From: Bacteroidales bacterium
GTDB lineage: Bacteria > Bacteroidota > Bacteroidia > Bacteroidales > ML635J-15
Assembly (NCBI GenBank): GCA_028686735.1
Contig: JAQUBO010000015.1
Location: 1 to 39,170 of the forward strand
Reading direction: 5' to 3'
Length of the DNA stretch: 39,170 nt
The position numbers and the translations under genes were made by a program. Under the pieces are notes generated by a model that worked only from the letters and a program-made list of their open reading frames with translations, was not told the DNA's origin and made no database searches. Below, in pieces: positions 17,314-36,640 of the stretch. Each line of letters begins with the position of its first letter. Within the stretch, counting starts at the first letter, position 1.

Positions 17314-19680
17314 ATGAGTAATATGCAAAAATTAAATTTTTTAGGGAGTTTTATAGCTTTTCTGATTATTTCACTGTTTTCTTTCGGACAAGTTGCAGTA
17401 GGACAGTGGAGAGACCATCTCCCATATAATGACGGGAAAATGATTGCTCTGGCTGGTAGCGATGTTTATATGCTTACAGATGTGGGGCTATTAAAGTACT
17501 CTATTAATACTGGCGAAATTCTAAAACTTTCTAAAATCAATGGACTAAGTGATATTGGAGTCAAATCTATTGCATACAATAAGACAACTGGATATATAGT
17601 GCTTGGTTATAAAAATGGAAATATAGACTTGATTAAGGATAATAAGATCATTAATATTAGCGATATTAAACGAAAATCAATGAATGCAGATAAAACTATT
17701 TATTGTATGGATTTTGTTGAGGATCTTGCTTATCTTGGCTTAGGGTTTGGAATTGTTGTTGTTGATCTTGGAAGGCTTGAAATTAAGGAAACATGGTATA
17801 TTGGACAAAATGGTACAAATGTTAAAATTAATGCAATTGATATTAATAACGAATATGTTTATGTGGCTACAGAAAATGGAATTTTAAAAGGCAATCTTAA
17901 TGATGCATTGGTCGATTTTGCAAAGTGGGAAATTCTGTCAGATATAGATCAGACAGGACCATTTAGCTGGATGTCTGGCAAAAATTATGGACATATACAT
18001 TATACCAATGATAATTTATTGGTAAGCTTTAATAATACCGAAATCCAAAATGCCGATACCATCCTAATGTTTGATGGTAATAATTGGGATTATTTTGAAA
18101 AAGAACTAAACGATGTAGTGTATCTTGGTGGAAATGAGAATGAGTTTTATTGGTGTTCAACTTATTGGATGAAAATTTATGATGCGAATCGTAACGAAGT
18201 TAGGCAAGTGTGGGAATTAAGATTTACAGATGGAGTGCAGGGTACACAACCAAATTTTGCAATCTTTGATGGTGATGAAGGTATTTGGATAGCAGATAGT
18301 AAACATGGACTCGTCCATAATCCAGTGTCTTGGAAATATGACAAAATAAATGTTAATGGACCTTCTGATTACGAAGTGTTCGCTATGGATGCTGTTGGTA
18401 AGGAACTTGTTGGTGTCGCTGGTGGCATGAGTTTGTCGTGGGGACCAAATTGGAAGCAAGGCACATATTATCATTTTTTAGAGCAAATGTGGAATACATA
18501 CGATTATAATAATACTTTTAAACCATTGGATTTAAGAGATTTTGTGAAAGTTAAAATCGACCCTAATGATAAAACGAGAGTTTTCTTGGGATCATGGATA
18601 CATGGGCTTGTCGAAATGAGAAATAATCAGTTTTATAAAGTTTATAATGACGCAAACTCTACATTACAAAAAGTACCAGGGATAAATTATTTGCGAATTG
18701 GAGGATTAGATTTTGATAAGGACGGAAACTTGTGGGTTACAAATTCTCTGACTGCTCCGCAATTTCATGTGATGACTAACGACGGAGAATGGCATAGTTT
18801 CGATTACTCTTCTCTTTTAGGTGGGAAAAATATTAGTGATATTATTGTAACACAAAATAATCATAAATGGGTAGTCCTTCCTCAAGGAAGCGGATTGTTT
18901 GCTTTTGATGATAATGGAACTATTGATGATAAAACTGATGATAGGTATCGACAATTTAGTGTTATAAACGAAGAGGGAGAGATAGTTAGTAATAGTGTTT
19001 ATTCTATAGCTGAAGATAAAGATGGTAATATCTGGGTAGGTACAAATAAAGGTGTTGTTGTGTACTATAATCCTGAAGATGTGTTTGAAACTGGAGTATA
19101 TCATGGCCGACAGGTTAAAATACCACGTAATGATGGTACAGATAATGCAGATATTCTTCTCGCAAACGAAATTGTTAGTGCAATTTATGTTGATGGAGCA
19201 AATAAAAAATGGTTTGGAACTCAAACAGGAGGGGTGTATTACACTAGTGAAGATGGTTTGGAAGAAATTCATCATTTTACAACAGAAAATAGCCCTTTGT
19301 TAGATAATAATATTATTGCTATTTCGATTATCCCAGAAACAGGTGAAGTGTTTTTTGGAACAACAAGAGGTATGATATCGTATCGAAATACAGCAACAGA
19401 AGCTGCCGAAGATTATATTGGAGTTTATGCTTTCCCAAATCCTGTAAAACCAGATTATAGTGGACCAATTACTGTCTCAGGATTAGTTGCTGGATCGTAT
19501 GTGAAAATTACAGATATATCAGGAAACCTCGTTTTTGAAACAAGATCTGAAGGTGGCTCGGCAGTTTGGTACGGAAAAGACTTAAACGGAAATAGAGTAC
19601 ACACTGGGGTATATCTTGTGTTTTCTACTAACGAAACTGGGTCAAAAACAGATATTACTAAAATATTGTTCATCAATTAA
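17314..19680 (+). CDS. porZ: PorZ-like type IX secretion system propeller protein
   Basis: PorZ is a surface component of the T9SS attachment complex, which delivers anionic lipopolysaccharide to sortase PorU. The 788-residue product has a signal peptide (about 1-26) and WRDHLPYND at the start of the mature chain, as in PorZ. Two beta-propellers of regulator-propeller type follow (blades such as NKTTGYIVLGYKNG, DNEYVYVATENGI and DKDGNIWVGTNKGVVVY). The C-terminal beta-sandwich of about 85 residues starts at YAFPNPVKP and ends DITKILFIN, which is a T9SS CTD. Length is close to the Porphyromonas protein. The recO gene follows after 3 bp, an order I believe is common in this phylum. Confidence 0.82.
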   Translation: MSNMQKLNFLGSFIAFLIISLFSFGQVAVGQWRDHLPYNDGKMIALAGSDVYMLTDVGLLKYSINTGEILKLSKINGLSDIGVKSIAYNKTTGYIVLGYKNGNIDLIKDNKIINISDIKRKSMNADKTIYCMDFVEDLAYLGLGFGIVVVDLGRLEIKETWYIGQNGTNVKINAIDINNEYVYVATENGILKGNLNDALVDFAKWEILSDIDQTGPFSWMSGKNYGHIHYTNDNLLVSFNNTEIQNADTILMFDGNNWDYFEKELNDVVYLGGNENEFYWCSTYWMKIYDANRNEVRQVWELRFTDGVQGTQPNFAIFDGDEGIWIADSKHGLVHNPVSWKYDKINVNGPSDYEVFAMDAVGKELVGVAGGMSLSWGPNWKQGTYYHFLEQMWNTYDYNNTFKPLDLRDFVKVKIDPNDKTRVFLGSWIHGLVEMRNNQFYKVYNDANSTLQKVPGINYLRIGGLDFDKDGNLWVTNSLTAPQFHVMTNDGEWHSFDYSSLLGGKNISDIIVTQNNHKWVVLPQGSGLFAFDDNGTIDDKTDDRYRQFSVINEEGEIVSNSVYSIAEDKDGNIWVGTNKGVVVYYNPEDVFETGVYHGRQVKIPRNDGTDNADILLANEIVSAIYVDGANKKWFGTQTGGVYYTSEDGLEEIHHFTTENSPLLDNNIIAISIIPETGEVFFGTTRGMISYRNTATEAAEDYIGVYAFPNPVKPDYSGPITVSGLVAGSYVKITDISGNLVFETRSEGGSAVWYGKDLNGNRVHTGVYLVFSTNETGSKTDITKILFIN

Positions 19681-25536: not shown

Positions 25537-25696
25537 GATGTAAATTACTTTATTTTTTTGCTCTTACTTCTCTTGTTCTCTTGTTCTTTTGTTCTCTTGT
25601 TCAATTGTTCTCTTGTTCGATTGTTCTCTTGTTCGTTGTTCGTCGTTCGTTGTTTTTTGTTTGTTGTTTTTTGTTTGTTCCTTTGTTCGATTGTTT

Positions 25697-25710
25697 CCGC
25701 CAACTGGCGG
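25697..25710. repeat. Perfect palindrome CCGCCAACTGGCGG, copy 1
   Basis: Six-base arms CCGCCA/TGGCGG surround AC, and the element is set among octamer repeats. An identical copy is at 25948-25961. This is the only GC-rich element in the block and is conserved exactly between the two composite units. Confidence 0.6.
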
Positions 25711-25787
25711 GTTCGATTGTTCTCTTGTTCTCTTGTTCGATTGTTCAATTGTTCTTACTTCAAAAACGTTTTGCTTTCAATAAATTG

Positions 25788-25828
25788 CCTTCGCTACCCC
25801 CCAACCCCTGAAGGGGAGTACCTTCGCT
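25788..25828. repeat. CCTTCGCT-flanked hairpin element, copy 2
   Basis: This is the same element as at 25497, with CCTTCGCT at 25788-25795 and 25821-25828. The hairpin between them differs from copy 1 by a few substitutions and a one-base insertion. Confidence 0.7.
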
Positions 25829-25947
25829 AATACAATTTACTTTATTTTTGTTCTTCTGTTCGATTGTTCCATTGTTCAATTGTTCGTTATTCGTCGTTCG
25901 TTGTTTTTTGTTTGTTGTTTTTTGTTTGTTCCTTTGTTCGATTGTTT

Positions 25948-25961
25948 CCGCCAACTGGCGG
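25948..25961. repeat. Perfect palindrome CCGCCAACTGGCGG, copy 2
   Basis: Second copy of the 14-base palindrome, in the same local context as copy 1 (GATTGTTT before, GTTCGATTGTTC after). Confidence 0.6.
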
Positions 25962-26311
25962 GTTCGATTGTTCTTTGTTCCATTGTTCGATTGTTCGATT
26001 GTTCTATTGTTCTCTTGTTCTCTTGTTCTCTTGTTCTCTTGTTCTCTTGTTCTCTTGTTCGTCGTTCGATTGTTCAATTGTTCAATTGTTCTCTTGTTCA
26101 ATTGTTCAATTGTTCAAGTGTTCAATTGTTCTCTTGTTCTCTTGTTCCTCTGTTCTTCCGTTCCTCTGTTCTTCCGTTCTTTTGTTCTCTATTCTGTTCG
26201 TCGCATTGCCAGATTTTTATCTTTGAACCTCGTATTTATACTTACATGAAATGTTATTTATACTCAATGGTTTGTAGTACTTACAGTCTATTGCACCAAG
26301 TTATAATTGAA

Positions 26312-26339: not shown

Positions 26340-27050
26340 ATGAAAAACTATTACGAACTTTTATCGACAGATGTTAGATTTCGTGAAGGACTTACAGCGT
26401 GCATGAATTGTGGTGTTTGTACTGCAATTTGCCCAGCTGCGGAGTTTTACAAATATGATCCTCGTCAGATATGTAATATTGTCCAAACTCGTGATGACGA
26501 TAAAATTGAGGCTCTTTTAAAAAGTGAGACAATTTGGTATTGTGGACAGTGTATGTCGTGCAAAGCTCGTTGTCCTCGAGGAAATGTTCCTGCTATGATA
26601 ATTTCTGTTTTAAGACGATTTTCGCAGGAACTCGGGTTTTTTACCGAAAGCGAAAAAGGAAGACAGCAATTTGCAGTTAAACGTACAGTTGGCGATAATA
26701 TTATTAATACCGGTTATTGTGTTCATATAGATAGTGTAACGCCTAAATTACATCCAGAACAAGGACCCGTGTGGAAATGGTATTACGAAAATGCCGAAGA
26801 GGTTGCCGATAGATTAGGAGCTAATTATAACAAAGAAGGTGGAGGTGCTTTACGAAAAATTTCGCAAGAAAACTTAGACGAAGTAAAACGAATTTTTGAT
26901 GTTACTAATGGAACTGGATTGTTTGAAAATATAGAGACATTTAGTAAAGCACAAGCAAAATTAATGAACCTGGGTTTTGATGATAAAGGAATAAATAACG
27001 AGTATTTCTTTCATACTTATATCGAAAATTCAGATAATCATCAAAAATAA
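26340..27050 (+). CDS. HdrC-like protein with two [4Fe-4S] clusters
   Basis: The 236-residue protein resembles HdrC, the electron-transfer subunit of heterodisulfide reductase. Two ferredoxin motifs supply ligands: Cys21, 24, 27 and 31 (CMNCGVCTAICP) and Cys68, 71, 74 and 78 (CGQCMSCKARCP). The C-terminal about 140 residues are longer than in the methanogen protein and contain PEQGPVWKWYYENAEEVADRLG, with no further Cys motifs. It is the first gene of a five-gene redox operon and the next gene begins 8 bp later. Confidence 0.82.
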   Translation: MKNYYELLSTDVRFREGLTACMNCGVCTAICPAAEFYKYDPRQICNIVQTRDDDKIEALLKSETIWYCGQCMSCKARCPRGNVPAMIISVLRRFSQELGFFTESEKGRQQFAVKRTVGDNIINTGYCVHIDSVTPKLHPEQGPVWKWYYENAEEVADRLGANYNKEGGGALRKISQENLDEVKRIFDVTNGTGLFENIETFSKAQAKLMNLGFDDKGINNEYFFHTYIENSDNHQK

Positions 27051-27058
27051 AAAATAAC

Positions 27059-28135
27059 ATGGATACTAAAAAGAAACATTTTTGGAATGAGTATCAGAAA
27101 GAAATTGCTGATGATAATTATTACTATGAGCGTAGCTGCATTAGGCAATCTTTCTTTCCAGGTTCTGAAACAGCATTTCTTAAAATATTGAGGGATGAAC
27201 TTGGTAAAACTGTTATTGATGATCAAAATCAACATACATGCACTGGTATTGGATATCATTCAGACGTAGTACAATTTGACACTACTATGACTATTTGTGC
27301 AAGACTTTTTTCGTTAATGACTGATAAGGAATTAACAAATTTTGTACCTTCTTGTGTAACATCATTCGGAATATTTACTGAGGTTTTTGAAACTTGGCAA
27401 GAGTTTCCAGAAGAGTTAGAGAAGGCTAGAGAGTTTTTGCGAAAGGCAACTGGTAGAGAATTTAAAGTGCCAGAAAATATTGCTCATCCATCGGATATAA
27501 TTTATAAGAACCGTAAGGAACTTAAGAAAAAAATGAAATATCAGCTTGTAAATCATAAAACTGGCAAACCTCTTAGAGTTGTTGAGCATATTGGATGTCA
27601 TTATGGTAAAATATTTACAAAACATGCGGTTGGTGGTGCAGAGTTTCCACAGGTTTTGGCTGGGATGATAGAAGAATGGGGGGGAGAAGTGATAGATTAT
27701 CCTGAAAGAAGACATTGCTGTGGTTTTGGGTTTAGACAATATCTGGTAATGGCAAATAGAGGTTATTCTGTTGCTAATACTAAGAAAAAATTTGAGTCTA
27801 TGGAAGAATATAAACCCGATTTTGTACTCACAAATTGTCCTGGTTGTACTATGTTTATGGATAGATGGCAATATACAATTGCTGAAATGGAGGGGAAAAC
27901 TTACGATGAGTATGGAATGGGCATTCCAGTGTTAACTTATGAAGAACTAACAGGATTATTATTAGGTTATAATCCATGGGATCTTGGTTTGCAAGTGCAT
28001 CAAATACAATCAGAGGCTCTTTTAGATAAAATTGGGATTGATTATGATCCAAAAAATAAATTTGTTGGAAAATCAGGAAAGTTTATTGGAATACCCGAAA
28101 AACCCGAAATCTTAAAAGTAGATTATGATGGATAA
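27059..28135 (+). CDS. HdrB-like protein with CCG domains
   Basis: The 358-residue protein is of the HdrB type, in which two cysteine-rich CCG domains bind the unusual [4Fe-4S] clusters that split disulfides in methanogen heterodisulfide reductase. The C-terminal copy is complete: Cys180 (GCHYG), Cys220 and Cys221 (HCCGFG), and Cys260 and Cys263 (NCPGC). The N-terminal copy is degenerate: Cys27, Cys61 (HTCTG instead of CCG) and Cys99 (PSCVTS instead of CxxC). One active-site cluster is therefore likely, and the true substrate is not known. The end overlaps the start of the flavoprotein gene by 11 bp. Confidence 0.8.
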   Translation: MDTKKKHFWNEYQKEIADDNYYYERSCIRQSFFPGSETAFLKILRDELGKTVIDDQNQHTCTGIGYHSDVVQFDTTMTICARLFSLMTDKELTNFVPSCVTSFGIFTEVFETWQEFPEELEKAREFLRKATGREFKVPENIAHPSDIIYKNRKELKKKMKYQLVNHKTGKPLRVVEHIGCHYGKIFTKHAVGGAEFPQVLAGMIEEWGGEVIDYPERRHCCGFGFRQYLVMANRGYSVANTKKKFESMEEYKPDFVLTNCPGCTMFMDRWQYTIAEMEGKTYDEYGMGIPVLTYEELTGLLLGYNPWDLGLQVHQIQSEALLDKIGIDYDPKNKFVGKSGKFIGIPEKPEILKVDYDG

Positions 28136-29150
28136 AAGAGTCTTGATAATTGGAGGAGGACCTGCTGGAATAGAAGCAGCTTATAGCCTCGCATTGCAAG
28201 GAGTTAAGCTTGTTTTAATAGAGGAGAAAGCAGATGTTTGTGGACATATCCAAAATTGGGATAAGCTTTTTCCAGATTTTCAAGATGCTGAGCAGATTAG
28301 ACAAACTTTATATCGAAAATTAGATCACCCAAATATTGAAGTAATTACTAATACTGAAATAAAAAATTTATATCCTAAAGGTAAATCGTGGTTTGCTAAA
28401 AAGGATGCAGATAAAATATTTGAGGCTGATGCCGCTTTATTAGCAACTGGTTTTGAGGTGTTTGATGCAAAAAGAAAAGAAGAACTGGGGTATGGAATTT
28501 ATGATAATGTAATTACTTCGGTGGATTTTGAAAAAATGTATAAATCTGGTAAAATCTTAACTTCAGAAGGAAAAGTGCCAGAACGTATTGCGTTTTTAAA
28601 CTGTGTTGGTAGTAGAGATGAGAAAGTTGGAAACCATTATTGCTCAAGAGTTTGTTGCATTAATGCTGTTAAACAAGCAATAGAGTTTAAAGAGCTTGTC
28701 CCTGATTCGAAAGCATATTGTTTTTATATGGATATGAGAATGGCAGGACAATTTTACGAGGAACTTTATAGAAAATCGCAGGAGGAATATGGTGTTACTT
28801 ATATTCGAGGACGAATATCTGAAGCTGCTGTTACTATGGATAATCGAATTCAAATTAAAGCCGAAGATACTTTAAGTGCCTTACCCATGAAAATGACACT
28901 TGACCTTTTGGTACTTATGGTGGGTATAGAGTCATCTGCTGGAACAACATTATTGAGCGAACAAAATGATGTGTTGGGGCTATATGGTTTTGCAAAACCT
29001 TTGGGTTTATATTCTGAAGATAATATGACCTCGAAACCTGGTTTATTTTTAGCAGGAACTTGTAAACGTCCTTTAACTTTGCCCGAAACTCTTGCAGATG
29101 CTAGATCGGCAGCAATCGATATTGTTAAGTACTTAAAAACTACCACATGA
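28125..29150 (+). CDS. HdrA-like FAD protein
   Basis: The 341-residue flavoprotein resembles the FAD core of HdrA and QmoA. It has the dinucleotide-binding GGGPAGIEAA (9-18) followed by an acidic VLIEEK end. An HdrA-type cluster motif follows: Cys160 (NCVGSRDE), Cys173, Cys177 and Cys178 (YCSRVCC). The C-terminal FLAGTCKRPLTLPETLADARSAA is the FAD-closing motif. It lacks the extra ferredoxin domains of methanogen HdrA, so electrons must leave through the partner HdrC-like subunits. It overlaps HdrB by 11 bp and the next gene by 4 bp. Confidence 0.82.
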   Translation: MMDKRVLIIGGGPAGIEAAYSLALQGVKLVLIEEKADVCGHIQNWDKLFPDFQDAEQIRQTLYRKLDHPNIEVITNTEIKNLYPKGKSWFAKKDADKIFEADAALLATGFEVFDAKRKEELGYGIYDNVITSVDFEKMYKSGKILTSEGKVPERIAFLNCVGSRDEKVGNHYCSRVCCINAVKQAIEFKELVPDSKAYCFYMDMRMAGQFYEELYRKSQEEYGVTYIRGRISEAAVTMDNRIQIKAEDTLSALPMKMTLDLLVLMVGIESSAGTTLLSEQNDVLGLYGFAKPLGLYSEDNMTSKPGLFLAGTCKRPLTLPETLADARSAAIDIVKYLKTTT

Positions 29151-29497
29151 AAAATTGGGGATTTAAAATATCAAAACCAAGGGTTTTAGACTTTGATACA
29201 GCAAACTTAGATGCTTATAATCGGCTAATAGAAAAAGTCCCCTCAGCTCATAGATGTCTTATGTGTGGGGCATGTACTGCAACTTGTACCGCAAACTTAC
29301 ATACTGAATTTAATTTTCGAAACTGCCATTTAATGTTTCGCAGAGGACAATTCGAAGGGCTTGCAGAGGAACTTGATAAGTGTATGTTGTGCGGAAAGTG
29401 TAAGCTTGTTTGCCCAAGAGGTGTAAATACTCGTGCTATAATTTATAACTTGAGAATTGTTCTTAGTGATCTTAATTATAAAAAAATTGAAGCATGA
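29147..29497 (+). CDS. Small HdrC-like ferredoxin, two [4Fe-4S] clusters
   Basis: The 116-residue protein carries two cluster motifs: Cys37, 40, 43 and 47 (CLMCGACTATC) and Cys79, 82, 85 and 89 (CMLCGKCKLVCP). An extra Cys60 lies between them. It is a second, shorter HdrC-type subunit, likely connecting the HdrA-like flavoprotein to the membrane protein encoded next. ATGA overlaps on both sides (4 bp with each neighbour) indicate translational coupling. Confidence 0.82.
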   Translation: MKNWGFKISKPRVLDFDTANLDAYNRLIEKVPSAHRCLMCGACTATCTANLHTEFNFRNCHLMFRRGQFEGLAEELDKCMLCGKCKLVCPRGVNTRAIIYNLRIVLSDLNYKKIEA

Positions 29498-31326
29498 ATT
29501 TTCATCCATTTATACTGCCATTTGTAGTAGGAGCAATTGTTTTATTTGCTATTATTATCTATAAATATGTTTCTTGGATAAAAAATCTTGATCGTAAACA
29601 AAAATATTTTGTCAATAAAAACATGTTTACATTTAAGACTATACAAGCAATAGGCGAGGTAATTCGCGAAGCTTTAATTCATCGTAATATTTATAAGAAA
29701 AATCCTGTTCTTGGATATATGCACATGAGTCTGGCATTCGGATGGTTTTTGCTTATCGTTGTTGGTAAAACTGAATCGTCATTTTATGCAGGAACATTTT
29801 TTGAAGAACCATGGCTTGCTATTTTCTTTAGATATTTTGCTCGAGAGCCACACGAGTATTTTATGGCTGCCCAGTTTACTTTTATAATGGACTTTTTATT
29901 ACTTGTGGTTTTGAGTGGAGTGCTTTTGGCGATTATCAAAAGAATGCGTTCAAAGTTTATGGGAATGAAAAAAGCTACTAAACACAGTACATTCGATCGG
30001 ATAGCCCTTTCTGCTTTGTGGTGGGTTTTTCCTTTACGACTTTTAGCCGAAAGTACAACTGCTGCTATTACTAATAATGGAGGCTTTTTAACAGGTTCTT
30101 TGGGTAATTTGATGACAAATTTGCCTGTTCAAACCATAGAATTACCGCTTTGGTGGGCATATTCTACTGTTTTATTTGCATTTTTTGTTGCATTGCCATT
30201 TTCAAGATATATGCACATCCCAACAGAAGTTGTTTTAATATTTTTAAGAAAATGGGGAGCAACAGCTGGAGAGCAATATTCAGGCTTATCTGATATTCAA
30301 ATTAATGCTTGTTCTCGATGTGGTATTTGTATAGATGCTTGCCAACTTAATTTTGCTGCCGATATCAATAATGTTCAATCGGTTTATTTTATACGGGACA
30401 CTCGATATGGAAATCTTACTGATGATATAGCAAATAATTGTCTGCTTTGTGGAAGGTGTACTGAGGCTTGTCCTGTTGGTATCGAAACAACACTGATTCG
30501 CCAACAAATGCGTAATAAAGCCGAGATTCCCGGTAAACATTATTATGATTATGCAGAAACAACTGACTGTAATTCAAAAGTCGAAGTGGTTTATTTTGCT
30601 GGTTGCATGTCGCATCTTACTCCAAGTATTATTATTTCGATGAAGAAAATATTTGATGCTGCTGACGTTAAATATTGGTTTATGGATGAGGAAAAAGGTT
30701 TATGTTGTGGACGACCAATGCGTCAGCAAGGATTTGTGCAACAATCAAAAGATTTGATTAGTAAAAATATGAGGATGATTCACTCATCAGGGGCAAAATT
30801 GCTTGTAACATCTTGTCCCATTTGTTACAAATCTTTTCGAGACGAATATGCACTTGAGATTCCAGTTCTTCACCATTCAGAGTATATCGAAATATTAATT
30901 AATAATGATAAATTAAAACTTAATAATTCTGGTAAATCAATAGTGTATCACGATCCGTGTGAATTGGGTAGAGGCTGTAATGTTTATGATGCTCCACGAA
31001 CGGTACTTGAGAAAATTGGTAAATTACAGAGTGCTGAGTTAGAAAAAGAAAACTCTTTATGTTGTGGTGGGAGTTTGTCTAACTCTGTGATTGATCTTGC
31101 AACACAAACTAAAATTAGAGACCATGGTCTTGAAGTATTAACCGCATCAAATCCAGATATACTTGCGACTGCATGCCCTTTATGTAAAAAGTCTTTTGTA
31201 CATGGAAATAAAGCAATAGTACAGGATATTGCAGAGATTGTTGCTGTTAACATTGTATCTGAAAAACAAAGCAAAAAGGTAGAATTAGTTAAAAAGATTA
31301 ACGAATTTGAGGTAAGTTATAAATAA
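29494..31326 (+). CDS. Membrane HdrE-HdrD fusion, Fe-S and putative haem protein
   Basis: The 610-residue protein fuses a NarI/HdrE-like membrane domain to HdrD-like cytoplasmic domains, similar in plan to DsrMK. The first about 260 residues contain five or so hydrophobic helices with histidines that could ligate b haems (YMHMSLAF, REPHEYFM, SRYMHIPTE). Two [4Fe-4S] motifs follow: Cys273, 276, 279 and 283, and Cys316, 319, 322 and 326. Two complete CCG domains then occur (FAGCM, LCCGRP and CPICYKSF; DPCELGRG, LCCGGS and CPLCKKSF). It should exchange electrons between menaquinone and a disulfide-like substrate or the HdrABC-like partners. It starts inside the previous gene with a 4-bp overlap. 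Confidence 0.82.
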   Translation: MNFHPFILPFVVGAIVLFAIIIYKYVSWIKNLDRKQKYFVNKNMFTFKTIQAIGEVIREALIHRNIYKKNPVLGYMHMSLAFGWFLLIVVGKTESSFYAGTFFEEPWLAIFFRYFAREPHEYFMAAQFTFIMDFLLLVVLSGVLLAIIKRMRSKFMGMKKATKHSTFDRIALSALWWVFPLRLLAESTTAAITNNGGFLTGSLGNLMTNLPVQTIELPLWWAYSTVLFAFFVALPFSRYMHIPTEVVLIFLRKWGATAGEQYSGLSDIQINACSRCGICIDACQLNFAADINNVQSVYFIRDTRYGNLTDDIANNCLLCGRCTEACPVGIETTLIRQQMRNKAEIPGKHYYDYAETTDCNSKVEVVYFAGCMSHLTPSIIISMKKIFDAADVKYWFMDEEKGLCCGRPMRQQGFVQQSKDLISKNMRMIHSSGAKLLVTSCPICYKSFRDEYALEIPVLHHSEYIEILINNDKLKLNNSGKSIVYHDPCELGRGCNVYDAPRTVLEKIGKLQSAELEKENSLCCGGSLSNSVIDLATQTKIRDHGLEVLTASNPDILATACPLCKKSFVHGNKAIVQDIAEIVAVNIVSEKQSKKVELVKKINEFEVSYK

Positions 31327-31357: not shown

Positions 31358-32620
31358 ATGATAGACATTTTTGATAGATTGAAAGAAGCTAGAGGACCAT
31401 TAGGTCAGTATCAACAAAAAGCAGAAGGATATTTTATGTTTCCTGCTCTTGAAGGTGAAATTAAACCTCGCATGATATTTCAAGGTCGCGAAGTTTTAAC
31501 CTGGAGTTTAAATAATTATCTTGGTTTGGCAAATCATCCAGATGTTCGTAAAGCTGATGCTGAAGGTGCGGCTGAGTATGGTATGGCTTATCCAATGGGT
31601 GCGAGAATGATGTCAGGACAAACAAAACATCATGCCGAATTAGAAAATAGATTAGCAAAGTTTGTAAATAAAGAATCTTCTTTTCTTCTCAATTACGGTT
31701 ATCAAGGAATGGTTTCAATTATCGATTCTTTAACCACTCGTAATGATGTTATTGTATATGATTCTGAATCTCATGCCTGTATAATGGATGGAATATTCCT
31801 TCATAAGGCTAAGGGGGGTAAAAGCTTTGTTTTTCCACATAATGATATTGAGCGTTGTGGTAAGATGTTGAAATTTGCTACTAAAATAGCAAATGAAAAT
31901 GGTGGTGGTATTTTGGTTGTTACCGAAGGCGTTTTTGGAATGGCTGGTGATTTAGGCTATTTGCCAGGAATTGTAAAATTAAGAAAAGATTATAAATTTA
32001 GATTATTAATTGACGATGCACATGGTTTTGGAACTATGGGTGAAACTGGTTCGGGTGCTGGCGAGCATTTTGGAGTTCAAGATGAGGTAGATATATATTT
32101 TGCTACTTTTGCTAAGTCGATGGCTGGTATTGGAGCTTTTGTTGCTGCCGATAAAGATATTATTGATTATTTAAAGTATAGCATGCGTTCGCAAATTTTT
32201 GCCAAATCTTTGCCAATGCCAATGGTAATTGGTGCATTTAAACGTTTAGAAATGCTTCAAAATGATCCTTCGCATAAAGAGAATTTGTGGAAAATTGCAA
32301 AAGCATTGCAGAATGGCTTAAAAGAAAATGGATTTGATATTGGTGTTACGGAGTCTCCTGTAACTCCAGTATATTTTAGTGGCTCCGTTCCAGAGGGTAC
32401 AAATATTGTGATTGATCTTCGAGAAAACTATAATATTTTCTGCTCTATTGTTGTATATCCTGTAGTACCTAAAGGAGTTTTGATGTTACGTCTTATTCCT
32501 ACAGCTGAACATACTTTAGAAGATGTAAACGAAACAATAGAAGTGTTTAAGAAAATAAAATCTAATCTTGACGCAGGTAAATATAATACCGACGAGATGA
32601 AATCAATGAAAATCGGATAA
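31358..32620 (+). CDS. Alpha-oxoamine synthase family PLP enzyme; candidate cysteate fatty acyltransferase
   Basis: The 420-residue enzyme belongs to the family of serine palmitoyltransferase, KBL and AONS, which condense an amino acid with an acyl thioester and release CO2. PLP contacts are visible: the DDAHG motif (219-223) and the Lys253 Schiff base (TFAKSMAGIGAF). The N-terminal WSLNNYLGLANHPDVRKA is the family opening. The YPMGARMMSG segment differs from the G-T-G-SR pattern of true serine palmitoyltransferase. Related Bacteroidetes enzymes (SulA, CapB) make the dehydro-capnine precursor of sulfonolipids from cysteate. The neighbouring fold-II PLP enzyme and reductase fit that reading. 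Serine palmitoyltransferase activity for sphingolipids remains the alternative. Confidence 0.7.
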   Translation: MIDIFDRLKEARGPLGQYQQKAEGYFMFPALEGEIKPRMIFQGREVLTWSLNNYLGLANHPDVRKADAEGAAEYGMAYPMGARMMSGQTKHHAELENRLAKFVNKESSFLLNYGYQGMVSIIDSLTTRNDVIVYDSESHACIMDGIFLHKAKGGKSFVFPHNDIERCGKMLKFATKIANENGGGILVVTEGVFGMAGDLGYLPGIVKLRKDYKFRLLIDDAHGFGTMGETGSGAGEHFGVQDEVDIYFATFAKSMAGIGAFVAADKDIIDYLKYSMRSQIFAKSLPMPMVIGAFKRLEMLQNDPSHKENLWKIAKALQNGLKENGFDIGVTESPVTPVYFSGSVPEGTNIVIDLRENYNIFCSIVVYPVVPKGVLMLRLIPTAEHTLEDVNETIEVFKKIKSNLDAGKYNTDEMKSMKIG

Positions 32621-32645
32621 TTCCTGATTATCAATTTATGTTATA

Positions 32646-32690
32646 AAAAAACGAAGTAGAATTATTTATTGTTAATTTTACTTCGTTTTT
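32646..32690 (+). terminator. Terminator between the synthase and the PLP fold-II gene
   Basis: AAAAACGAAGTA on the left pairs with TACTTCGTTTTT on the right, with some further pairing inside a loop of about 15 bases. The stem is flanked by T bases downstream. It starts 26 bases after the synthase stop, so the next gene may need its own promoter, which is not obvious. Confidence 0.7.
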
Positions 32691-32709
32691 AAAATTTAAA
32701 ACTTAGTTT

Positions 32710-34029
32710 ATGAAAGATGATAGTAAGTATTATTTAAAATGTGTTAAATGTGAGCATATTACTCCAGACTTTGGTGCTTGGTTCGAACAAAATCAAGTAT
32801 GCCCAGAGTGTGGTAGTAATCATTCAGAGGTTTGGTATAGCAGTGATTATAAAGAATTGCCACTAATAATAAAAGGAAATCCTATAAGTTTTTGGCAGTA
32901 TTTTTATTATTTACCACTCTCAAAACAAGAAAACATTGTTTCAAGAAAAGAAGGAGCTGTTTCATTACAAAACTGGTGGTTTCTTGAGGATTTTGCGAAA
33001 GAAAAGTATGGATTAGATATAAATGTACAAGTTTATCGTAATGATTTGAATGGCGGAACAGGGACTTTTAAAGACGTAGCGGCTTCGTTGGCTGCAAGCA
33101 TCTTTAAGGAGCACGATATTAAACAATACTGTGTGGCATCGACGGGAAATACTGCAACTTCTTATGCAAGATATTTGTCAATTGCTGGTATTAACTGCTC
33201 TGTTTTTATACCCGATAATGCTTTAAAGGCCTCCGAAGCAGTAATTAGTGCTTTTGGACAGCAAGTCTTTAGGGTTAAAGGCGATTATTCAAAAGCAAAA
33301 AAAATTGCTGCTGAATATTCAAAAAAATATAATATTCTTATTTCGATTGGTAATATTGACCCTATTAGAGTAGAGGCTAAGAAAACAATGGTTTTTGAGT
33401 GGCTACGTTATTTGGATCGTATGCCTGATGTATATATACAAGCGATTAGTGGTGGAACTGGACCAATTGCAATTGACAAAGGCATTCGTGAAATAAAATC
33501 AGTTTATCCAGATCTTAAAAATCCGAAATTTATTATGGTACAGCCTGATGGTTGCGACCCAATGGTACAAGCTTGGGAAAAAGCAGAAAAAGATGGTTTC
33601 CCTAAAGGATTTGAAAAGGAGTATCCTATATTAGAAAATCCTAAAACAGCAGTGCCAACTTTAGGTACTGGACATCCTGCAACATATCCAATTATAGCAA
33701 AACTTGTGAAAAACTCTGGTGGAACGTTTCTTCGAATGAAAGAATCTAAAATGATCGATTATGGTAAACTGATAGCTTACGAAAGAAAAGTAATTCTTGG
33801 ACCAGCATCAGCTGTTTGTATGGCAGGATTTTTTGAAGCCCTCAAGAAAGGATTGATTAAAAACGGTGAAACTGTTCTTATTAATACTGGCGAGGGTGTG
33901 CGTAGAGCACCAGATTTTGTTAACGAAATGATATATACAACTAAGGATGTTGATAGCATTGATGAGTGTAAACCTCATGAGATTGATGATTATCGTAAAC
34001 AACTTTGGGACGCTGTAATTAAAGACTAA
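32710..34029 (+). CDS. Threonine-synthase-like PLP enzyme; candidate cysteate synthase
   Basis: The 439-residue protein is a fold-II PLP enzyme of the threonine synthase group. A zinc-ribbon-like N-terminus has Cys11/Cys14 and Cys31/Cys34. The Schiff-base lysine is Lys121 in GTFKDVAAS. STGNTATSYARYLS and IQAISGGTGPIAID hold the cofactor phosphate, and NTGEGVR near residue 395 closes the active site. Archaeal-type cysteate synthase, which makes L-cysteate from O-phosphoserine and sulfite, evolved from threonine synthase. It has been reported in Bacteroidetes next to the sulfonolipid acyltransferase. The position right after an alpha-oxoamine synthase favours cysteate synthase, but a threonine synthase role cannot be excluded by eye. 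Confidence 0.65.
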   Translation: MKDDSKYYLKCVKCEHITPDFGAWFEQNQVCPECGSNHSEVWYSSDYKELPLIIKGNPISFWQYFYYLPLSKQENIVSRKEGAVSLQNWWFLEDFAKEKYGLDINVQVYRNDLNGGTGTFKDVAASLAASIFKEHDIKQYCVASTGNTATSYARYLSIAGINCSVFIPDNALKASEAVISAFGQQVFRVKGDYSKAKKIAAEYSKKYNILISIGNIDPIRVEAKKTMVFEWLRYLDRMPDVYIQAISGGTGPIAIDKGIREIKSVYPDLKNPKFIMVQPDGCDPMVQAWEKAEKDGFPKGFEKEYPILENPKTAVPTLGTGHPATYPIIAKLVKNSGGTFLRMKESKMIDYGKLIAYERKVILGPASAVCMAGFFEALKKGLIKNGETVLINTGEGVRRAPDFVNEMIYTTKDVDSIDECKPHEIDDYRKQLWDAVIKD

Positions 34030-34061
34030 GGAATTATCAAACAATAAAGGATAAGAATTGG

Positions 34062-34645
34062 CGGAAAAAGAATAGACATTAACTCCGTTCTTTAGTTGAC
34101 GGAAGAACAATAGATATTTACACCGTTCTTTAGTTTGCGGAAAGAGAATAGAGATTAACCCCGTCCTTTAGGTCGGGGTAACGAACATAAATGAGAACAG
34201 GGCTTTAGCCCTGACAGTAATGGAACTTTAACTTATTTACCCCGACCTAAAAGGTCAGGGTAAATAATAAATAGAAAGTAGTGTGGACAATAAAAGTAAA
34301 ATTAAAAAACAGAGTAAAAATAAAATAAACATTAACACTGTCCTTTAGTTGACGGATTATGAATAGAAATTGACTACGTCCTATTGTTGACGGATTATGA
34401 ATAGACATTAACTCCGTTCTTTAGTTGGCGGAAAAAGAATAGATATTAACCCCGTCCTTTAGGTCGGGGTAACGAACATAAACGAGAACAGGGCTTTAGC
34501 CCTGACAGTAATGGAACTTTAACTTATTTACCCCGTCCTGAAGGTCAGGGTAAATAATAAATAGAAAGTAGTGTGGAAAATAAAAATGAAATTAAAAAAC
34601 AGAGTAAAAATAAAATAAACATTAACACTGTTCTTTAGTAAAAAA
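34062..34645. repeat. Tandem duplication of a 290-bp block of hairpin repeats
   Basis: This stretch has no gene. A block from about 34075 to 34345 is repeated with few changes at about 34400-34635 (offset 290-291 bp). Each copy contains hairpins with a TTTA-type loop: CCCCGTCCTTTAGGTCGGGG (34159 and 34451), CAGGGCTTTAGCCCTG (34198 and 34489) and CCCCG/TCAGGG arms near 34239 and 34530. Between and beside them, weaker versions of the same hairpin (CCGTTCTTTAGTTGACGG and variants) occur at roughly 34085, 34123, 34340, 34377 and 34413, making about a dozen units. This resembles the REP-type hairpins found in many Bacteroidetes intergenic regions. The ends (34030-34061 and 34646-34749) show nothing else. 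Confidence 0.85.
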
Positions 34646-34749
34646 GATATGATTAAAAGAAAATAACTAGTGAGTTATATAGACGAGGTGTTTAGAACAT
34701 TATTTTTTATATATAAAGTCAATTTTCTTAATTTATTTTAAAAATTATT

Positions 34750-35547
34750 ATGCAGATTGTTTTAGATAGAGTAATTTGGATTACCGGGGCATCTTCTGGT
34801 ATTGGCGAGGCTTGTGCTTATTTATTCGCAAAAAAAGGAGCTCGATTAATTCTAACAGCCACTAAAGTCGATAAACTAAAAAAAGTGAAATCGAAATGTA
34901 TTCAATTTGGTGGTAGGTGTGAGATTTTGCCTTATGATCTTTCGAATATTCAAGATATTGATACACTAGTAGAGAATGCTCTGTTGTTTTATGGACGAAT
35001 AGATATACTTTATAATAATGCAGGGATAAGCCAGCGATCAAATGTTCAAGAAACGTTGTTAGATGTTGACCAAAAGATTATGGATATAAATTTTTTCGCA
35101 CCAGTTAAAATTACAAAATTGTTATTACCTAAAATGATTGAACAAGGTGGAGCTACTATTGCTGTAACAACTAGTATATCAGGTCGTTTTGGCTTTCCAC
35201 TCAGATCAGCATATTGCTCCTCAAAGCATGCACTTTATGGTTTTTTCGAAACTCTTCAGGCCGAATATTATGACCAAAGTATTAGAGTTGTAATGGTTTG
35301 CCCAGGTCGAGTTCAAACAAATATATCAGTGTCTGCTTTAGAAAAAGATGGAAAGCCACATGGGAAAATAGATGATGGACAAGCTGGTGGAGTGCCTGCT
35401 GATAAGGCAGCAAAAAAAATTGTTAAGGCAATAATAAAACAAAAACCAGAAGTCCTTGTAGGGGGTAAAGAGCTTTTAATGCTTTATATTAAGAGGTTTA
35501 TTCCAGGATTATCAAGAAAATTAGTCAGAAAAATAAAACCAACATAA
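34750..35547 (+). CDS. Short-chain dehydrogenase/reductase; candidate dehydrocapnine reductase
   Basis: The 265-residue protein is a classical SDR. It has the NAD(P)-binding TGASSGIG (12-19), NNAG near residue 90, a Ser in TTSISGRFG, and the catalytic pair Tyr155 and Lys159 (YCSSK). MVCPGRVQTNIS follows. The C-terminus is longer than the core domain and ends in a hydrophobic, basic tail (LYIKRFIPGLSRKLVRKIKP) that may associate with the membrane, as in DHRS7-type and 3-ketosphinganine reductase-like SDRs. In a sulfonolipid pathway the third step is reduction of the 3-keto group by such an enzyme. The VOC gene follows after one base. Confidence 0.75.
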   Translation: MQIVLDRVIWITGASSGIGEACAYLFAKKGARLILTATKVDKLKKVKSKCIQFGGRCEILPYDLSNIQDIDTLVENALLFYGRIDILYNNAGISQRSNVQETLLDVDQKIMDINFFAPVKITKLLLPKMIEQGGATIAVTTSISGRFGFPLRSAYCSSKHALYGFFETLQAEYYDQSIRVVMVCPGRVQTNISVSALEKDGKPHGKIDDGQAGGVPADKAAKKIVKAIIKQKPEVLVGGKELLMLYIKRFIPGLSRKLVRKIKPT

Positions 35548-35548
35548 A

Positions 35549-36640
35549 ATGGAAAAATTTGTTATTAGTGGAATTCAACAAGTAGGTATTGGAGTTGAGA
35601 ACTTCTCCGAAGCCTGGAAGTATTACATTGATGTTTTTAATATGGATGTAAGAATACTCGAAGATGATACTGTTGCCGAGTTAATGTTACCTTATACTGG
35701 AAATAAACCTCAAAAACGGCATGCTTGCATCGCGATTAATATGCAAGGGGGAGGCGGTTTTGAAATCTGGCAATATTCAGACAGAAAACCAAAAAAAATA
35801 GATTTTGATATTCACTTGGGCGATTATGGAATATTTGCTGCAAAAATAAAAAGTCGAAATGTTATTCTCACTTATGAGCTATTTAAAGCAGATCCTAATA
35901 TAACTATTTTAGGTGGATTGCATAAATCAATTGATAATTGTCATACATTTTTTATTAAAGATCCTTACGGAAATATTTTTCAAATTGTTCACCACAAATA
36001 TATTTTACGTGACGAGAAACGCTCTACTGGTGGACCAGTTGGTGCTATTATAGGTGTAAGTGATATTGAGAAATCATTGACGGTTTATAGAGATATTTTA
36101 GGATATGATAAAATTGTGGCTGATGAAACTGGGGTTTTTGGTGATTTTAAAGCTTTGAACTCCGGAGAACAGAAGTTTAGAAGAGTTTTGCTTACTCATT
36201 CTGAACCTCGAAAAGGAGGTTTTAGTAAATTGTTTGGTAGTTCGTTTATTGAGTTAGTTCAAGCATTGGAAAGGGAACCTCGTAAAATATATGAAGGACG
36301 TTTTTGGGGCGACCCAGGTTTTATTCAAATTTGTTTCGACGTTAGAAATATGGATGCTTTGCGTAAGCATAGCGAGAGTTATGGACATCCATTTACTGTC
36401 GATAGTGCCATAAAGGATGATAATGCAGACTCTTTTGATATGGGGAATGCGGCTGGACGTTTTACATATATCGAAGATCCTGATGGAACATTAATTGAAT
36501 TTGTTGAAGCTCATAAAATCCCTCTGGTAAAAGCATTGGGATTAAACTTGAATCTTCGTAAACGAGACCCAGAAAAATCGCTCCCAATGTGGATGCTTAA
36601 AGCTTTGCGGTTTAGTCGTGTAAAAAGTAAAGACGTGTAA
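35549..36640 (+). CDS. Two-domain VOC superfamily protein, metal ligands altered
   Basis: The 363-residue protein has two vicinal-oxygen-chelate (glyoxalase) domains, about 5-155 and 163-325, like extradiol dioxygenases and 4-hydroxyphenylpyruvate dioxygenase. Domain 1 starts ISGIQQVGIGVENF and has FEIWQYSDRKP and DPYGNIFQIVHH. Domain 2 starts GAIIGVSDIEKS and has FIELVQALERE, GFIQICFDVRNM and EDPDGTLIEFVEAHK. Where the usual His ligands are expected, Gln or Ala/Ile are seen (IQQVG, VGAII, FIQICF), while the Glu positions remain. A canonical His-His-Glu iron site is therefore unlikely. It is translated with the SDR (1-bp spacing) and may act on the same lipid or redox pathway, but no reaction is predicted. 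Confidence 0.65.
   Translation: MEKFVISGIQQVGIGVENFSEAWKYYIDVFNMDVRILEDDTVAELMLPYTGNKPQKRHACIAINMQGGGGFEIWQYSDRKPKKIDFDIHLGDYGIFAAKIKSRNVILTYELFKADPNITILGGLHKSIDNCHTFFIKDPYGNIFQIVHHKYILRDEKRSTGGPVGAIIGVSDIEKSLTVYRDILGYDKIVADETGVFGDFKALNSGEQKFRRVLLTHSEPRKGGFSKLFGSSFIELVQALEREPRKIYEGRFWGDPGFIQICFDVRNMDALRKHSESYGHPFTVDSAIKDDNADSFDMGNAAGRFTYIEDPDGTLIEFVEAHKIPLVKALGLNLNLRKRDPEKSLPMWMLKALRFSRVKSKDV

Follow-up and report, generated by a model that had tools for sequence, protein, structure and literature searches.

A predicted sulfonolipid cluster of Bacteroidales and its recurring link to an Hdr/EtfD-like electron-transfer module

Sulfonolipids are unusual sulfur-containing membrane lipids of Bacteroidetes. 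In Flavobacterium johnsoniae they rank among the main lipids of the outer membrane (PMC12045153), and they have been connected with gliding and with host immunity (PMC9304779, PMC11211663). Here we analyze a stretch of 39,170 nucleotides (the window) from a Bacteroidales bacterium (GenBank assembly GCA_028686735.1, contig JAQUBO010000015.1, positions 1 to 39,170, forward strand), on which the core genes of a predicted capnine-type sulfonolipid cluster follow five genes for proteins resembling subunits of heterodisulfide reductase (Hdr) and EtfD. For the core genes, such a pathway is already known; what is new is their recurring link to this Hdr/EtfD-like electron-transfer module and, in relatives, to genes of type IX secretion.

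For the lipid genes, the closest described enzymes are SulA of Alistipes finegoldii (structure 7u7h; PMC9304779), the protein of structure 28eh, which is named cysteate-C-fatty acyltransferase, and the archaeal cysteate synthase of the TIGR03844 kind (9k3c). As a review describes them, CapABC of Capnocytophaga and Ornithobacterium follow the same three-step logic, and the CapA and CapB accessions are consecutive (PMC12927429). CapA and the archaeal-type enzyme have been named as two sources of cysteate in Bacteroidota (PMC10191378). For the module, the nearest counterparts are the type I sHdr system, which makes sulfite and is recognized by the syntenic core shdrC1B1AHC2B2 (PMC11582611), and mycobacterial EtfD (9ojn). 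The locus that we compare with these systems comprises nine genes:

26340..27050, plus strand: HdrC1, HdrC-like, with two CxxCxxCxxxC [4Fe-4S] motifs (NCBIfam HdrC, 86 bits, below cut-off)
27059..28135, plus strand: HdrB1, HdrB-like, with an intact second CCG domain (NCBIfam HdrB, 152 bits, below cut-off; HdrB in the PDB, 100 bits)
28125..29150, plus strand: short HdrA-like flavoprotein of 341 amino acids (aa) (alignment to 6tjr)
29147..29497, plus strand: HdrC2, small dicluster ferredoxin (NCBIfam and Pfam Fer4)
29494..31326, plus strand: HdrBm, EtfD-like membrane Fe-S protein, 610 aa (AlphaFold model, Foldseek, Pfam Fer4 and CCG)
31358..32620, plus strand: sulA/capB, cysteate fatty-acyltransferase (3-ketocapnine synthase) by sequence, 420 aa (7u7h, 28eh)
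32710..34029, plus strand: CS, fold-II pyridoxal 5'-phosphate (PLP) enzyme, probable cysteate synthase, 439 aa (tree, context)
34750..35547, plus strand: short-chain dehydrogenase/reductase (SDR), probable 3-ketocapnine (dehydrocapnine) reductase, 265 aa (PRK06181, motifs, position)
35549..36640, plus strand: tandem VOC-fold protein, fourth gene of the core cluster (Pfam Glyoxalase, fold model)

The five Hdr-like genes overlap or lie 8 bp apart and the last of them ends 31 bp before sulA, while a single base pair separates the SDR gene from the VOC gene.

Identity of the core genes

A sequence-only reading of the window had placed an alpha-oxoamine synthase (AOS), a fold-II PLP enzyme and an SDR in this order on one strand and had proposed a sulfonolipid rather than a sphingolipid locus. 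NCBIfam and Pfam searches returned the same three families for the three open reading frames (ORFs), whose positions and common strand agree with that proposal, and the motifs it had listed were located as well: Lys253 in the synthase, Lys121 (in TFKD) and Cys11/14/31/34 in the fold-II enzyme, and Tyr155/Lys159 in the SDR. The gene order as described holds, but that reading had overlooked the VOC gene, the Hdr module upstream and the repeats between CS and the SDR gene.

Compared with solved structures, the sulA product scores 615 bits with 7u7h and 570 bits with 28eh, against 242 bits with the serine palmitoyltransferase (SPT) 3a2b and 217 bits and less with the next entries, so that both solved cysteate acyltransferases lead SPT by more than 320 bits. 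The protein stays below the cut-offs of all 11 AOS models that it matched, SPT, KBL and BioF included; the Bacteroidetes SPT model gives 303 bits at a cut-off of 640. In the alignment to 7u7h, the PLP lysine Lys251 corresponds to Lys253 and Lys281 to Lys283 of the window protein. In A. finegoldii, Lys281 accounts for three orders of magnitude of activity, and bacterial SPT carries alanine at this position (PMC9304779). All 129 tblastn matches that reach 50% identity and span this site have lysine there, a count in which overlapping loci recur, and two paralogues at 31% identity have asparagine. As to a second complete sulfonolipid set elsewhere in the genome, one part of the finding that had been named as speaking against the proposal, the window's own genome yielded no further SulA; its two other AOS matches are only 30% and 24% identical. 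On these sequence criteria, 31358-32620 is a SulA/CapB-type cysteate acyltransferase that differs from the described enzymes in nothing notable, except that it is arrayed here with Hdr genes; on the missed cut-offs and the bit scores, we reject an identity as SPT, KBL or BioF.

The second enzyme, CS, is of the fold-II PLP type like archaeal cysteate synthase and aligns to the TIGR03844 model over nearly its full length, but it scores 112.7 bits there against a cut-off of 324.9. The solved cysteate synthase 9k3c itself belongs with TIGR03844, its fragment scoring 362.9 bits, and CS is about 26% identical to that fragment, which points to a separate lineage. The earlier label "archaeal type" therefore stands only in the looser sense of a possible distant sister group. 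Lys121 and the four cysteines are invariant in an alignment of 26 sequences that contains the window's own. A first tree had 43 rows, including 12 threonine-synthase loci from a survey of threonine synthase (ThrC) in 27 chosen genomes that carry the fold-II enzyme; it joined the CS family and 9k3c with support of 98/95 and placed three groups of threonine synthases outside. For a second tree, with 23 rows, 13 of the 26 CS rows were kept, and the most distant threonine synthases, including the six long ones, were omitted along with the own locus L135. The split came out at 98/95 again, but with 9k3c on a long branch, with fragment rows, and with alternative topologies only borderline rejected (p-AU 0.048-0.054). 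A separate threonine synthase above cut-off was found in 17 of the 27 CS carriers, the relatives G003-G006 among them. ThrB, sought as a sign of threonine prototrophy, exceeded its cut-off in only 3 of the 27 genomes although 17 have ThrC. CapA of Capnocytophaga is related to cystathionine beta-synthase and, by this family assignment, differs from CS.

The SDR scores 227 bits with PRK06181, above its cut-off of 215, but this model is named only as an SDR. Together with the glycine-rich GASSGIGE from residue 13, the catalytic motif and the position of the gene make 3-ketocapnine reductase its likely function. The motifs do not decide this role, because only 3 of 12 SDR candidates of C. gleum were active in vivo (PMC11211663). 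The VOC protein is modeled (pLDDT 89) with a GLOD4/glyoxalase-like tandem fold, found also in plant glyoxalase I; by sequence, no protein of solved structure matched it at E 0.1. In VOC proteins, a histidine ligand usually sits on the first strand; this histidine is not among the invariant residues here.

The order of these genes was examined across a genome collection, in which 92 candidates were confirmed and 80 loci kept. With sulA sought up to 2.5 kb upstream of CS on the same strand and the SDR within 1.5 kb, sulA precedes CS in 55 of the 80 loci, an SDR follows in 46 and the complete sulA-CS-SDR-VOC series is present in 41. The order sulA-CS-SDR is not due to chance. SulA was also detected (E 1e-100 or better) somewhere in 38 of 41 CS genomes, namely the window's own and 40 picked from the 80 loci, even where the two genes are not adjacent. 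The 25 loci without sulA beside CS (L053, L055, L060, L062-L083) have CS homologues that are 52-62% identical; 12 come from records named Salinivirgaceae, and in 16 a VCA0040-like translocase gene lies near CS, several having a TPR gene and a shikimate-dehydrogenase-like gene as well. As a separate observation, two metagenome-assembled genomes labeled Chlorobiota (G033 and G040; loci L073 and L083) carry CS and gave no SulA match at E 1e-100.

How far these data support a sulfonolipid cluster has to be weighed against two other identities. A sphingolipid locus, with an SPT in place of SulA, would draw on the enzyme family that both pathways share and on the score of 303 with the Bacteroidetes SPT model, but the missed cut-off, the far higher scores with solved SulA and the lysine where bacterial SPT has alanine leave it hardly credible, and the preference for sulfonolipids over sphingolipids is supported. 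That CS might instead be a divergent threonine synthase standing beside sulA by chance is improbable, if clearly less so: CS is below the threonine-synthase cut-offs (157 bits with PRK08197, cut-off 303; 95 bits with TIGR00260, cut-off 167), it groups, if not decisively, with the archaeal cysteate synthase, sulA lies just upstream of it in most loci, and 17 of the 27 carriers have their own ThrC. Several observations nonetheless weigh against our assignment. The best NCBIfam model for CS is that threonine synthase, which outscores the cysteate-synthase model by 157 to 113 bits, and no ThrC exceeded the cut-off in 10 of the 27 carriers, the window's genome included, nor in G121 and G225 of the same genus, each 100% complete. 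In the window's genome, where this gap remains, the separation of CS from threonine synthase therefore rests on the relatives. Across the order, 295 evenly sampled genomes were searched at E 1e-120 for SulA, 1e-60 for CS and 1e-80 for HdrBm, with distant homologues counting as absent and the co-occurrence uncorrected for phylogeny; 208 have SulA, 55 have CS and 47 have both. The co-occurrence is only modest (SulA in 47/55 genomes with CS vs 161/240 without; odds ratio 2.9, p 0.008), and eight genomes have CS but no SulA, four of which (G062, G214, G076 and G319) are 92-99% complete. SulA is thus much more widespread than CS and often works without it. Finally, the 720-bp gap between CS and the SDR gene holds two copies (34058-34658; 88-89% identical) of a roughly 291-bp non-coding unit, with 38-bp sub-repeats, and might part SDR and VOC from the other genes; the same gap measures only about 20-30 bp in L012-L014. 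Because of genomic context, phylogeny and the separate threonine synthase of relatives, no family cut-off being reached, we regard CS as probably a cysteate synthase. For the core genes, we consider a capnine-type sulfonolipid biosynthesis cluster very probable.

An Hdr/EtfD-like module beside the lipid genes

Members of the Hdr family act in methanogenesis and sulfur metabolism, and EtfD is a menaquinone reductase that serves fatty-acid oxidation. In the five proteins encoded upstream of sulA, the cluster cysteines are kept across 23-27 distinct sequences each. The eight cluster cysteines of HdrC1 are kept in 24 of 24 distinct homologues, and those of HdrC2 in 25 of 25. HdrB1 has a degenerate first CCG domain, in which Cys27, Cys61 and Cys99 are kept, and an intact second one, with cysteine conservation in 23 of 23 sequences. 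Residues 4-333 of HdrA match 6tjr (349 aa) in one stretch with 197 bits; alignments to longer HdrA chains break into two stretches, with at most 205 bits, and 6tjr is the only near-full-length single-stretch match. We take 6tjr to be the HdrA-like subunit of the Hyphomicrobium sulfur-oxidising system, on which a literature search returned nothing. Cys160/173/177/178 of HdrA are kept in 25 of 25 homologues. HdrBm, finally, combines long N-terminal helices, two [4Fe-4S] motifs and two intact CCG domains (AlphaFold pLDDT 86), and His63, His77 and His241 are invariant in 27 of 27 sequences. Its best Foldseek match over the whole chain is 9ojn, EtfD of Mycobacterium smegmatis (E 6.6e-20, TMq 0.65), which likewise unites membrane helices, ferredoxin and CCG domains in one chain; unlike the 1042-aa EtfD chain, HdrBm has 610 aa and is accompanied by HdrC-, HdrB- and HdrA-like genes. 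From the model we infer that HdrBm may be a membrane arm for electron exchange with menaquinone. Just upstream of the module lies a low-complexity array of 8-bp TTGTTC-type units (25568-26190).

With sHdr, the module shares the short HdrA (341 aa here, about 350 aa there) and a similar subunit order. It differs in its series C1-B1-A-C2-Bm, which has no sHdrH, and in that the protein at the B2 position is fused to a membrane domain and is EtfD-like. In ten ORFs from the flanks of five related stand-alone modules, we found no lipoate-binding protein and no sulfur transferase, LbpA, TusA and DsrE not having been searched genome-wide; an ECF sigma factor is the only gene type common to these flanks.

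In 16 of the 80 loci, HdrBm precedes sulA at a distance of no more than 2 kb, and 13 of these loci show all five Hdr genes; of the remainder, L006 and L016 are cut by a contig end and L010 shows only HdrBm. Beyond the module, the genes vary among these 16 loci. Lipid and Hdr genes occur together in three arrangements. The module follows the lipid genes in G121 and G225 (SulA-CS-SDR-VOC-HdrC1-C2-Bm-B1-A) and is inserted between them in G081 (SulA-CS-HdrC1-B1-A-C2-Bm-SDR-VOC), while G148 has SulA-CS-Hdr and G181 Hdr-SulA. In G160, VOC-HdrC1-C2-Bm stand on a contig of their own, with sulA on another. In the sample of the order, HdrBm is present in 88 of the 295 genomes, and SulA accompanies it in 82 of these 88, as compared with 126 of the 207 others (odds ratio 8.8, p 4e-9, uncorrected for phylogeny); of the six HdrBm genomes without SulA, four are 76-82% complete. 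The several arrangements and the co-occurrence together argue for a functional tie between the Hdr module and sulfonolipid synthesis, and the module may serve the lipid pathway. If so, the linkage provides five concrete candidate genes for that pathway. A literature search joining heterodisulfide reductase with sulfonolipid returned nothing, but subscription journals lie mostly outside its coverage and novelty is unproven.

The module and a possible supply of sulfite

The sulfonate of cysteate derives from sulfite, for which APS reductase is a usual source. In the pathway that we propose, CS would convert O-phosphoserine and sulfite to L-cysteate, SulA would condense cysteate with an acyl thioester to 3-ketocapnine under release of CO2, and the SDR would reduce 3-ketocapnine to capnine, with N-acylation encoded elsewhere. 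The Hdr complex, with its five subunits and EtfD-like membrane arm, would connect the quinone pool with a thiol- or sulfur-type substrate through electron exchange, and would work for the lipid pathway, possibly from a transcript shared with the core genes. Our leading guess for its contribution is the supply of sulfite. The literature consulted does not touch on the sulfite source in anaerobes, and the word sulfite is absent from PMC9304779.

APS reductase (E 1e-10) is present in the window's own genome, and among SulA genomes it occurs in 23 of 36 with the Hdr module and 24 of 35 without it (p 0.80). If the module replaced APS reductase, the latter should be lost from Hdr-positive genomes; as it is equally frequent with and without the module, Hdr does not replace it. 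The module may be an additional sulfite source or have another redox task in the pathway.

Two accounts of the module compete. In one, it is a biosynthetic counterpart of the sulfur-oxidising Hdr system and would, in an anaerobe, turn sulfane sulfur or sulfide into sulfite for cysteate synthase, with the electrons reaching menaquinone by way of the EtfD-like subunit. This agrees with the short HdrA and its single-stretch match to 6tjr (with the identity of 6tjr as assumed above), with a C1-B1-A-C2-B2-like order resembling that of the sulfite-making sHdr system (PMC11582611), with a membrane subunit of EtfD fold, and with the three arrangements in which Hdr genes join those of a sulfite-consuming pathway. 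It is countered by the APS reductase distribution, by the missing sHdrH and by flanks without lipoate-binding protein or sulfur transferase, and we rate it as unlikely, if attractive. The fuller proposal, a dedicated non-respiratory Hdr complex that makes sulfite at the membrane for cysteate synthase and so couples sulfonolipid synthesis to the menaquinone pool, is slightly more doubtful again; if true, it would represent a biosynthetic use of sulfur-oxidising Hdr chemistry in anaerobic Bacteroidales.

In the other account, the module is a general EtfD-like quinone-linked complex of anaerobic Bacteroidales, whose co-location with the lipid genes is only regulatory or historical. Such a complex would fit the role of EtfD in fatty-acid oxidation, and a shared lifestyle or ancestry could yield the uncorrected co-occurrence. 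Several observations speak against a dedicated link to the lipid pathway: HdrBm is not found in 19 of the 40 genomes chosen as CS carriers, Dysgonomonadaceae among them; five of six Hdr modules from CS-negative genomes (L184-L187 and L197, not L183) have no sulA in the stretch; and in the sample of the order CS and HdrBm are unassociated (both in 15 genomes, p 0.74), 73 of the 88 HdrBm genomes having no CS. A general complex does not readily explain why the same lipid genes recur beside the module in three arrangements, why VOC and Hdr genes stay together in G160 with sulA on another contig, or why SulA is present in all but six HdrBm genomes, four of these six being incomplete. We rate a general complex as less likely than not, though somewhat more likely than the sulfite account.

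Neighbouring genes and the host genome

Of the 80 loci, 20 that fall between L018 and L058 have a PorP/SprF gene of type IX secretion downstream of the core cluster. The records are named Petrimonas, Proteiniphilum, Fermentimonas or more loosely, presumably all Dysgonomonadaceae. At least one of PorK, L, M and N, the core of type IX secretion, is found in 16 of these loci, and PorP/SprF is on the VOC strand in all 19 in which VOC was called, at less than 160 bp or with slight overlap in 13 and at 1.5-7 kb in 6. Upstream of the cluster stand genes for phosphatidylserine synthase (20/20) and decarboxylase (19/20). The PorP-side arrangement may be a single ancestral one and does not count as independent evidence. 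With the core cluster placed against porP and PorKLMN, the old link of sulfonolipids to gliding and type IX secretion, two topics that a literature search found combined in two papers for sulfonolipids and type IX secretion, can be tested gene by gene. In the window itself, a PorZ-like protein of type IX secretion is encoded at 17314-19680, some 12 kb before sulA.

The window has a GC content of 33%, and six other stretches of its bin, which is rated 7.36% contaminated, have 32-35%. Contaminant origin of the window, raised by the 44-45% GC of stretches from its genus, is unsupported, given these values elsewhere in its own bin. Two loci labeled with the window's genus (L179 and L180) show that higher GC content, and their SulA and CS are only 56-59% identical to those of the window. 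The window's SulA is 93-95% identical to that of L004 and L005, and the genus label looks odd.

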